A program made the position numbers and the translations under genes. This document shows positions 15,103 to 43,904 of a stretch of DNA of 48,656 nt, piece after piece. The first letter of the stretch is position 1. Every line of letters begins with the position of its first letter. The notes below the pieces were generated by a model. That model was not told the origin of the DNA and ran no database searches. It worked only from the letters and a program-made list of their open reading frames with translations. The stretch is from Candidatus Peribacteraceae bacterium (GTDB taxonomy: Bacteria > Patescibacteriota > Gracilibacteria > Peribacterales > Peribacteraceae). The stretch covers positions 1-48,656 of the forward strand of contig JASMHZ010000007.1 in assembly GCA_030750465.1 (NCBI GenBank). Reading direction: 5' to 3'.

Positions 15103-15798
15103 ATGGTGATTTTGGCTTATTCATGCGTATCTTCTTGTGACGGCACATCCTCATTGGATGTAGCTTCAGTATCTGTACCCATATTAACAATAATCCCATT
15201 ATCAGTTGCAAACGCCAAGACGTTCAAAGAACGATTATGCGATCGGGTAGTTAATAGGTTCCAAGACGATCAAATAATGTGGCAAAGAGTTAACGATCGT
15301 ATTGAAAAGCGTTTTGGTTATCGATGCGAATCAATTGAAGAAGATGAGGAGGCGATCTCAAACAGAAAGTACGATGTTAAAACTTGGGAAGATAAAAAGG
15401 GAAGTTACAAAATGATAACTCCTCCCGGTGGGGTCGCACCAGAGGTAGTAAAAACTCCAAAAGACAGATTTTATTTCCTTGAAGAACGGATGGAAGAAAA
15501 TATGGAATCATGGAGGGCATTGCATCAAGAAATGGGTGAAAAAATGGAGTTATTTATGGAACATTATAAAGCAGGTGGAAAAGAGGGAGTTCATGAGGTC
15601 AATGAATTGGAGAAAAAATTTATCACTCAATACAATAAATATTATGATATTTACAATGAGCTTGTATATCTAAGTTCCGACCTAAAACGTTACTGGAAAT
15701 TTCAAATTAGACTTGAAATAATTCAAAGCATTGAAAGCAAAATAAGAGGAATAGAAAAAGAGTTCGATAAAATGCCACGTGTAATGTATTACTACTGA
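15103..15798 (+). CDS. putative secreted coiled-coil protein carrying the C-x28-C RVN motif
   Basis: Signal-peptide-like start ending SVANA; motif CDRVVNRFQDDQIMWQRVNDRIEKRFGYRC at 15238-15327. Confidence 0.6.
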   Translation: MVILAYSCVSSCDGTSSLDVASVSVPILTIIPLSVANAKTFKERLCDRVVNRFQDDQIMWQRVNDRIEKRFGYRCESIEEDEEAISNRKYDVKTWEDKKGSYKMITPPGGVAPEVVKTPKDRFYFLEERMEENMESWRALHQEMGEKMELFMEHYKAGGKEGVHEVNELEKKFITQYNKYYDIYNELVYLSSDLKRYWKFQIRLEIIQSIESKIRGIEKEFDKMPRVMYYY

Positions 15799-37983: not shown

Positions 37984-38854
37984 TTATTTCACATCGCAGA
38001 CAAAATCAAACTTCTTTTTGAGTCTCCTATTCACTCTATCAATCATCTTCTGGTTTTCGCTAAACCTCCTTTCAACTCGAGGGCAAACGCGATCATGCAT
38101 TTTTTGCATTTCAGCAGAGAGACCATTGCTCCCAGTTACAACCAGCATTGGTGGAAGGTCAGAATCAGGCTCAAGAAGAGCCCCGCATCCGGTTGAGGGA
38201 AGGGTCGAGCCGCTCAGAGTTGAGCCTGAGCCTAATAAAGCATCTTCATCTGATGAAGGCTTTTCTGGTGCAGAGAATCTCTTGTCTTGTTGAACAATGC
38301 CCAGCGCCATCAATATCTTTCGGCGCATTCTTGCAGGTTGATTGGCGCTGTTTCCGGATGCAGCTGCTCCAAATATTCCCATGTCCGAGAACGCGGTAGT
38401 AGTACACGTTATAGTGTTGGCGGATGTATTAACTGAACAGCCGGATAGTTCAAACCAATTAGAACCGTCGTATCTATGTATCTCCAACGTTGTCGTACCA
38501 TACTATTTTATCGCCGCTGTTTGCAGCACCGGCTATGACATCAACATCGCCATCTTCGTCCAGGTCAACTGGCAGAACGGTTTCCGCATCAGTAAAACTT
38601 CCATCAATTGTATTTTTAGTAAAATTCTCGGAACCATCATTTTCATGCCAATAAACGTCATCCCCATTAAAATATGCTGATACTGCATCCATATCGCCAT
38701 CGCTATCCACGTCTGCAAGATAGCAATCGGTACTTCTAGTAGAATCAATCGAACTTTCGGTAAACGTAAGGACCTTCGCAAATATGATTCCTGCAGGAAT
38801 CAGCAGTATGAGCATTAAGGTAAATCCCAATAGTTTTACTACTTTTCGACGCAT
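37984..38854 (-). pseudogene. FG-GAP repeat protein with internal deletion and frameshift; C-terminal C-x28-C motif
   Basis: ORFs 38474..38854 and 37984..38487 join across a frame change; signal peptide plus one complete FG-GAP unit, then C-terminal tail. Confidence 0.65.
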
Positions 38855-41684: not shown

Positions 41685-43904
41685 TTAAACTTCGCACACA
41701 AAACCAAATCTCTTATTCAGCCTCTTATTTACCCTATCAACCATTTTTGCGTCTCCCGAAAATCTTCTTTCAACCCGCGGGCACACACGATCCATAATCT
41801 TTTTGGATTCTTCCGACAGTTCACTGCTTTCTGTTACGACTATTGACGGAGGCAGACTTGCTTCGGGATTCTGATCTAAACCGGAACCCTCTTGTCCCGG
41901 ATTCAGCGGCGGTGTGGCTTTGGGTGCAGAAGACTTTTTGAATCTAAATTTTTGAGCTTCTTTTACTCGCTTTGCGTAGGCTTTATAAGTTGGGTTTTGC
42001 ACCTTCTTTATTTTTGGTCCGGCATTGCGATTTGTTTGCGATCTTTTGACGCCTCTTCCTTTTATCAGGCTTGATCTCCTGTTTCTGGCGCTACCCTTTC
42101 CGGATGCTGCGGTTGTAAAGTTCCATGTTGTCGCATCAGTAATGCCTGCGTAGCTCCTGCCGTTTGCATCATAGAAAGCCATTGCATCTATCTTTATGTA
42201 ATAACTTATGGATGAATCGAGGTCGGCGACAGGATCGATAGTAACTGTAGTTGTTCCGCACCCCGTAACAGTGCCGGTAGCAGTACTGACCTGTTCGACT
42301 ACGGAGTCACCGGAAGTTTTGTAAATGGTTACGTATCCCGTACCCGTTAGTCCTGTTGTTTCCGAAAAAGTAATTTCCAAATTCGATGTAGCGGTTACAT
42401 CAGTGGCATTATCCGTGGGGGACAGAGTGGATGCTGTGGGATTGGTCTCGTCTGCAGTTGTAAAGCTCCAGGTGGTAGTATCAGAGATTCCCGCGTAATG
42501 ATTGCCGGATGCATCGGGTGCAAAGTTTGAGTCTACTTGTACATAGTAAGCGGTAAGCTCATCCAGATCCGAACTGGGATTGATGGTAAGGTCAGTTGTT
42601 CCGGAGCCTGTTACACCGCCGGTTGCAGCACTTATTTGCTCCACTATCGAGTCGTCTGATCCTTTGTAAATCGTCAGATATCCTGTCCCTGTCGATTCAA
42701 TGGTCTCGTTGAAAGTCATAGTCAGGTTACTGTTCGTAGCAATTCCCGTTGCATCATCCGCAGGCGTCTTGCTTGAAAGAGTTGGAGCGGTGGTGTCTGT
42801 TGCAGACTTATACCAGGCTATATCGCCCGACCATGATTGCTTGGGTCCGACGACAACATCCTTAATACCGTCTCCATCTATGTCTCCGACATGCAAGAAG
42901 CCGACATTTGTCTGATCGGCATCTATGGTTCGTTTTGTGAAATTGCCCGAGCCGTCATTTTCGTACCAAAGAACATCATCGTCATTACTGGCTACCAAAA
43001 TGATATCGTTATCTCCGTCTCCATCCAGATCATCCACAAAGGCATCATCCGGACCGTCCACTCCGCTGGTGAAAATTTCATTCTCGGTAAATGATTCGCT
43101 GCCGTCATTTTCGAACCATGACAATTGGTCGCTTGTGGATATGGCTACAACATCAAGGTCATTATCGCCGTCCATATCTTTTACCTGGACTGCCTGAACG
43201 CTGGTGAATGTCGCATCAATATCAATTTCGGTGAAGCTCTCGCTTCCGTCGTTATTATACCATTGAACGCCGTCGCTTGAGGAACCGACAACGACGTCTA
43301 TGTCGCCGTCTTCATCCAAATCCACTGCATCCACAACCCAGGCTCCGCTACAGTCACTGTCGATTGTTGTTTTTGTAAATGATTCAGATCCGTTGTTATC
43401 GTACCAAAGCACATCTCCAAGAGTGAAAACCATAACGACCACATCCAGATCATCGTCGCCGTCAACATCTATAACTTCCAGATCAACTGCTCCATTGATT
43501 GATGCATCGATTGATTTCTCGGTAAAACTTTCTGATCCGTTGTTGTCGTACCAAACAACTTTGTCTCCGCCGTTTGCCGCAGCAAGTACCACATCCAGAT
43601 CGCCGTCTTCATCCAAGTCGATGGGATGCACCGTTTGCGGATCGGTAAAACTTCCATCGATGTCGGTCTTGGTAAAACTTTCCGATCCGTCGTTTTTGTA
43701 CCAAACCACTTCATCATACGCGGTGTCCGCAGAAATAATATCTGCATCACCGTCTTCATCCAGATCGATAATGTAAAGAGTATTTGTTCTGTAGTTCGAT
43801 TGAATCACGCTTTCTGTAAATGTAAGTACGGCTGCTATTCCCAAAGAAATTGGTACGAGAAGTATCAGTAATACGGCGCATATTTTCAGTCGGATGTGAC
43901 TCAT
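41685..43904 (-). CDS. secreted FG-GAP/VCBS repeat protein with two Big_5-like domains and C-terminal C-x28-C motif
   Basis: Seven D-x-D-x-D-G-D-x-D units; two TLSPTDNATDV/TPADDATGI..SNLEITFSE domains; tail CPRVERRFSGDAKMVDRVNKRLNKRFGFVC. Confidence 0.8.
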   Translation of the reverse strand: MSHIRLKICAVLLILLVPISLGIAAVLTFTESVIQSNYRTNTLYIIDLDEDGDADIISADTAYDEVVWYKNDGSESFTKTDIDGSFTDPQTVHPIDLDEDGDLDVVLAAANGGDKVVWYDNNGSESFTEKSIDASINGAVDLEVIDVDGDDDLDVVVMVFTLGDVLWYDNNGSESFTKTTIDSDCSGAWVVDAVDLDEDGDIDVVVGSSSDGVQWYNNDGSESFTEIDIDATFTSVQAVQVKDMDGDNDLDVVAISTSDQLSWFENDGSESFTENEIFTSGVDGPDDAFVDDLDGDGDNDIILVASNDDDVLWYENDGSGNFTKRTIDADQTNVGFLHVGDIDGDGIKDVVVGPKQSWSGDIAWYKSATDTTAPTLSSKTPADDATGIATNSNLTMTFNETIESTGTGYLTIYKGSDDSIVEQISAATGGVTGSGTTDLTINPSSDLDELTAYYVQVDSNFAPDASGNHYAGISDTTTWSFTTADETNPTASTLSPTDNATDVTATSNLEITFSETTGLTGTGYVTIYKTSGDSVVEQVSTATGTVTGCGTTTVTIDPVADLDSSISYYIKIDAMAFYDANGRSYAGITDATTWNFTTAASGKGSARNRRSSLIKGRGVKRSQTNRNAGPKIKKVQNPTYKAYAKRVKEAQKFRFKKSSAPKATPPLNPGQEGSGLDQNPEASLPPSIVVTESSELSEESKKIMDRVCPRVERRFSGDAKMVDRVNKRLNKRFGFVCEV

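Follow-up and report, generated by a model that had tools for sequence, protein, structure and literature searches.

SLH domains (PF00395) are terminal surface-anchoring modules of unrelated exported proteins, and a conserved arginine lets them bind a pyruvylated wall polymer of negative charge (PMC6081394). The SLH unit comprises approximately 44 residues, usually occurs in threes, carries NRAE/TRAE and GYxDG motifs, and has no cysteine. CWB2 (PF04122), with its larger trimeric fold, and other arginine-based wall-polymer binders likewise provide non-covalent wall anchoring by basic residues (comparison drawn from PMC6081394). A second group of described systems, the sortase LPxTG, PEP-CTERM/exosortase, GlyGly-CTERM/rhombosortase, and T9SS signals, consists of short conserved C-terminal elements that follow low-complexity linkers in many secreted proteins. 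LPxTG, CTERM, and T9SS signals are C-terminal and need a dedicated enzyme or secretion machine, and the LPxTG and CTERM types contain a hydrophobic segment. Dockerin, in turn, is a short duplicated two-helix module found at protein ends. Within the Peribacteria, passages of a 2016 genome paper describe S-layer genes, a sortase, large Cys-rich exported proteins, and a single protein for disulfide formation, with no mention of a domain such as the one reported here (PMC4736985).

Here we describe, from one family of tiny, uncultured bacteria, a 33-residue, arginine-rich helical hairpin with two cysteines, which shares features with each of these systems. Similar to SLH, the hairpin is a terminal module of unrelated exported proteins and occupies the same position in homologues; in contrast to SLH, it is a single unit with two invariant cysteines and no sequence match to SLH. 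We infer a mode of action like that of an SLH anchor, but profile searches show that the hairpin does not belong to the SLH family. Non-covalent anchoring by basic residues, as in CWB2, is also what we propose for the hairpin, although Pfam reports no sequence similarity between the two. The hairpin resembles the LPxTG, CTERM, and T9SS signals in being a short conserved element that is C-terminal in most carriers and preceded by low-complexity linkers, but it has no hydrophobic segment, it is N-terminal in some carriers, and our search for a linked enzyme found none. Compared to dockerin, it lacks calcium-binding loops and a Pfam dockerin match and contains one Cys pair.

The sequence analysed is a stretch of 48,656 nucleotides (the window) from a Candidatus Peribacteraceae genome of 1.0 Mb in 64 contigs that is 82% complete. 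The original prediction, made from the DNA letters alone, had proposed a new surface-sorting domain on the basis of three ungapped 30-residue stretches, and translation confirmed all three, exactly as first read (Table 1). A six-frame scan of the window with a C-x26-30-C plus repeat pattern found these three copies and no fourth; the third is the sole copy on the plus strand. As predicted, the first copy ends an FG-GAP protein, and it is a true C-terminus, with the stop two residues away in one continuous ORF. The second copy had also been assigned to the end of an FG-GAP protein, but a domain search found no FG-GAP repeat in its ORF. This ORF and the FG-GAP ORF overlap briefly in different frames (38474-38502), and the second carrier is without the Big_5 region that is present in its paralogue (41685-43904). 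The disruption of the second carrier gene is either a real deletion or frameshift or an assembly error. The third copy had been described as the tail of an unrelated secreted coiled-coil protein. Its carrier is indeed unrelated and contains a coiled-coil-like region, but the copy lies close to the N-terminus rather than at the tail, and the signal peptide is imperfect: no basic residue precedes the hydrophobic stretch of the leader (15103-15240), although an ANA cleavage-like site is present. The true start of this carrier may be mis-assembled or frame-shifted.

Table 1. Hairpin domains and their carrier genes in the window.
Feature	Positions	Strand	Basis
C-x28-C basic helical-hairpin domain, C-terminal type (CPRVERRFSGDAKMVDRVNKRLNKRFGFVC)	41694..41783	-	Translation; profile E 4.8e-25; AF2 hairpin pLDDT 93.7
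First carrier, 739 aa: signal peptide, FG-GAP_3 x6, Big_5 x2, basic/Gly-rich connector, linker, C-terminal hairpin	41685..43904	-	ORF, domain search
Second C-x28-C hairpin domain (CPRVERRFSENQKMIDRVNRRLKKKFDFVC)	37996..38085	-	Translation, profile
ORF with second hairpin, 172 codons (37987-38502), part of a disrupted carrier gene and in a different frame from the FG-GAP ORF upstream of it	37984..38502	-	
N-terminal remnant of disrupted second carrier: signal peptide and FG-GAP-like repeats, ends in another frame	38474..38854	-	
Third C-x28-C hairpin domain, N-terminal type (CDRVVNRFQDDQIMWQRVNDRIEKRFGYRC)	15238..15327	+	Translation, profile; in the domain tree clusters with most other N-side copies
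Third carrier: hydrophobic leader ending ANA, hairpin, alpha-helical/coiled-coil-like region without Pfam family	15103..15798	+	

Within its own genome, the profile of the three copies recovers only the three copies of the window. Since the same three-row profile matches 27 of 96 relatives (best foreign E-value, 6e-20), the motif is not a product of chance. We enlarged the alignment to 36 and then 42 rows, at which point saturation was reached. Overall, we found 44 copies in 26 of 74 Peribacteraceae genomes, with one to five copies per carrying genome and a clear gap in E-value (4e-9 to 2e-4) in the family search. No credible member was found elsewhere in the class (353 genomes searched in all) or in a sample of the phylum (380 genomes), and the viral contigs searched contained no relative. 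Two matches outside the family were rejected as spurious, one having two internal stops (G318) and the other lacking the Cys pattern (G370). In a scan of a sequence collection the three-row profile had no match; a tighter scan returned records, and those with the domain are labelled Ca. Peribacteraceae, Peribacteria, Peregrinibacteria, or Patescibacteria.

The consensus of the domain is R-[VT]-C-x-R-V-x-[KR]-x-F-x(4)-[KM]-[ML]-x-R-V-N-x-R-L-x-K-R-F-G-F-x-C. Both cysteines and two arginines are invariant in all 42 alignment rows, conservation is nearly complete at R8 and F17, and 86% of rows have R26; a divergent branch (RICARVDRWIP...RRLAKWLGITC) is found in two genomes of one genus. The internal repeat noticed in the original prediction is significant in the 42-row profile (shift of 18, 15 columns, score of 20.7 against a null mean of 8.5), with none of 1000 column permutations scoring as well. 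The two-helix hairpin that had been proposed is also what AlphaFold2 predicts, with helices at residues 2-18 and 22-36 (mean pLDDT 93.7, pTM 0.67), and the turn of three residues between them implies antiparallel packing. Both predicted helices are strongly amphipathic and carry conserved arginines at matching angles. The arginines at R8, R12, R26, and R30 (alignment numbering) are 86-100% conserved and lie on helix faces that point away from the core, and the mean net charge of the hairpin is +5.6. Cys10 and the hydrophobic residues face inward, while Cys39 comes after a conserved Gly that ends helix 2. Given this placement, a bond tying the chain end to helix 1 is plausible, and a disulfide between the two invariant cysteines would close the hairpin.

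We found no evidence that this domain has been described before. The HMM search reached beyond the FG-GAP family and matched no known domain. Across the 42 hairpin sequences Pfam gave nothing above noise; NCBIfam had no match, PDB sequences had zero matches, Foldseek found none in PDB at E <= 0.001, and on these empty results a known domain was rejected. A literature search likewise found no description of the hairpin domain. These data support the original prediction of a distinct, so far undescribed domain that is common to many unrelated secreted proteins, and we regard it as a new domain family doing a known kind of job.

The expectation that the domain would be enriched at C-termini of proteins with signal peptides was borne out. 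We found that 36 of 44 copies end 0-7 residues from the stop, and that a signal peptide is present in 30 of 44 carriers compared to 41 of the 267 ORFs that neighbour them (p 2e-12). Signal peptides were called by a simple rule-based test, and several carriers that failed it are ORFs that are frame-broken or lie at a contig edge. The carriers include S1 proteases, FG-GAP/Big_5 proteins, LamG proteins, a C-type lectin with a beta-propeller, beta-helix proteins, and proteins without a family. C-terminal copies are preceded by Ser-rich linkers (21% Ser) and, in 30 of 36 cases by a loose pattern, by a Gly-rich/basic connector. A candidate second conserved signal, GGGGG..LLxLRxQNxLDxWGxPLP, is confined to few genomes and was set aside as only a local form of the connector. 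The remaining eight copies are on the N-terminal side, and none is located mid-protein in large proteins: five are close behind a leader sequence, and three lie between a short N-terminal region and an SNase domain. The latter carriers (L014, L061, and L064) are secreted SNase-type nucleases in which the hairpin separates an HSGG...YHFH N-terminal region from the nuclease domain. In the domain tree seven of the eight N-side copies cluster together.

One carrier (L021) is a lipoprotein. In genome G014, the hairpin replaces the C-terminus of VKOR, a disulfide-forming membrane enzyme (L022:958-1599, same gene in L123). The usual topology of VKOR places the C-terminus in the cytoplasm, and for this reason the fusion, which had at first suggested a disulfide-forming partner of the hairpin, was not counted as support. 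A gene neighbourhood shared by two genomes of the window's genus encodes a Big_5 protein whose hairpin is C-terminal in one genome (L117:4174-5043) and, on the opposite strand, a Cys-rich protein whose hairpin is N-terminal in the other (L093:4933-5577), which suggests a swap hotspot. In five genomes from different genera (L108, L037, L113, L041, and L114), a PhnB/VOC-like protein, identified by eye, is encoded close to hairpin genes, possibly by chance.

We asked how homologues of hairpin carriers end. The family was searched with the catalytic region of a hairpin-bearing protease and with the N-terminal region of a second hairpin-bearing family, and the ends of the homologues were inspected. 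Across the two carrier families, the endings found at the same place are the hairpin (7), SLH (15), or a Lys/Arg-rich tail (20). Among 16 protease homologues, 4 have the hairpin, 7 have SLH, and 5 have the Lys/Arg-rich tail; among 30 homologues of the second family, the numbers are 3, 8, and 15, with 1 weaker basic tail and 3 unjudged. Pfam confirms the SLH endings with up to 102 bits, 1 of the 15 (L181) being slightly under the cut-off, whereas no SLH match was found in the 42 hairpin sequences and 33 full carriers scanned. The three types of ending are interspersed in the protease tree. A hairpin protease (G101) is sister, with support of 0.92, to an SLH protease of the same genus (G056), and the two are 54% identical over 346 aa up to the linker and part only at the ending. 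One genome (G055) contains a paralogue with the hairpin and a paralogue with a basic tail. The GGGGGRR(GGG) connector precedes SLH endings and basic endings alike. This C-terminal replacement is a positional, not a chemical, equivalence of the hairpin and SLH.

The Lys/Arg-rich tails are common in the family, often follow a GGGGG-RR connector, and give the last 60 residues a net charge of +10 to +25 (L142-L146, L163, L164, L169-L172, L174-L176, L178-L180, and L183-L185). This ending, too, is apparently undescribed, and it may be a plain electrostatic wall binder.

Anchoring, one of the roles first proposed for the hairpin, is strongly suggested because SLH domains fill the same slot in homologues, and from this we infer retention at the surface. 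Most likely, the hairpin represents a new type of anchor at the cell surface. We think it likely that it is an autonomous, non-catalytic surface-retention module of Ca. Peribacteraceae that is equivalent to SLH in function and probably acts via an anionic wall polymer. Since each of the 74 genomes contains SLH, the wall ligand that SLH binds is presumably available. Under this model, the carrier would be exported by Sec, and two antiparallel amphipathic helices, which would stem from an internal duplication, would fold into a hairpin that a disulfide of the two invariant cysteines may lock. The conserved arginines of both helices, on equivalent faces, would bind the anionic wall polymer non-covalently. 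The carrier would be kept at the surface via its Gly/Arg connector and Ser/Pro-rich linker, and the hairpin would fill the role that belongs to SLH domains or Lys/Arg-rich tails in homologous proteins. Two observations speak against retention: the hairpin occurs in far fewer of the 74 genomes than SLH, and the lipoprotein and VKOR carriers have no obvious need for a wall anchor.

The hairpin could alternatively mediate protein-protein docking or oligomerisation, binding a receptor or other hairpins (dockerin-like or as a four-helix bundle) and so assembling adhesins, proteases, and lectins. Such a role would allow for hairpins at both termini, would suit the internal duplication with its pseudo-twofold symmetry, and would accommodate the lipoprotein carrier as a receptor scaffold. 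We nevertheless consider docking unlikely, since there is no obvious partner family, several genomes contain a single copy, and wall binding accounts better for the alternation with SLH and plain basic tails.

The original prediction named sorting as the other possible role and suggested looking for co-occurrence with a dedicated processing enzyme. In such a role, the hairpin would be a cleaved C-terminal signal that a transpeptidase or protease removes while joining the carrier to the envelope, in the style of sortase, exosortase/PEP-CTERM, or T9SS. The strong C-terminal bias, the Ser/Pro-rich linkers, the conserved connector, and the unrelated carriers are what such a signal would produce. 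The other data do not support it: eight copies lie towards the N-terminus, with seven of these in a single domain lineage, and no hydrophobic segment follows the hairpin, the alignment ending 0-7 residues past the last Cys. Moreover, neighbour genes are not conserved, sortase is present in 73 of 74 genomes, with or without the tail, and VKOR, present in 11 of 74 genomes, shows no significant co-occurrence with the hairpin (Fisher p 0.18), so that neither distribution discriminates. Copies per genome are also few, and known cleaved signals do not resemble a folded hairpin tied by a disulfide. Taken together, these data make a cleaved sorting signal improbable. More doubtful still is a role as an address tag, in which an undescribed attachment machine of Peribacteraceae would read N- and C-terminal tags alike, for example by recognising the arginine face and exchanging disulfides between the invariant Cys pair and an envelope component. 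A passive, ligand-free disulfide cap that shields the C-terminus of exported proteins from proteolysis would fit a small, compact, terminal domain with invariant cysteines, but it is highly improbable given the alternation with SLH and four off-core Arg positions conserved beyond the needs of stability.

To our knowledge, how minimal, probably episymbiotic CPR bacteria retain adhesins and proteases at their surface is largely unknown. If the hairpin stands in for SLH, the surface proteome of Peribacteraceae would be predictable from sequence. As a wall anchor, the hairpin would be very small, testable, and possibly portable. Furthermore, the swap between SLH, hairpin, and basic tail would constitute a natural experiment on the minimal requirements for wall anchoring.
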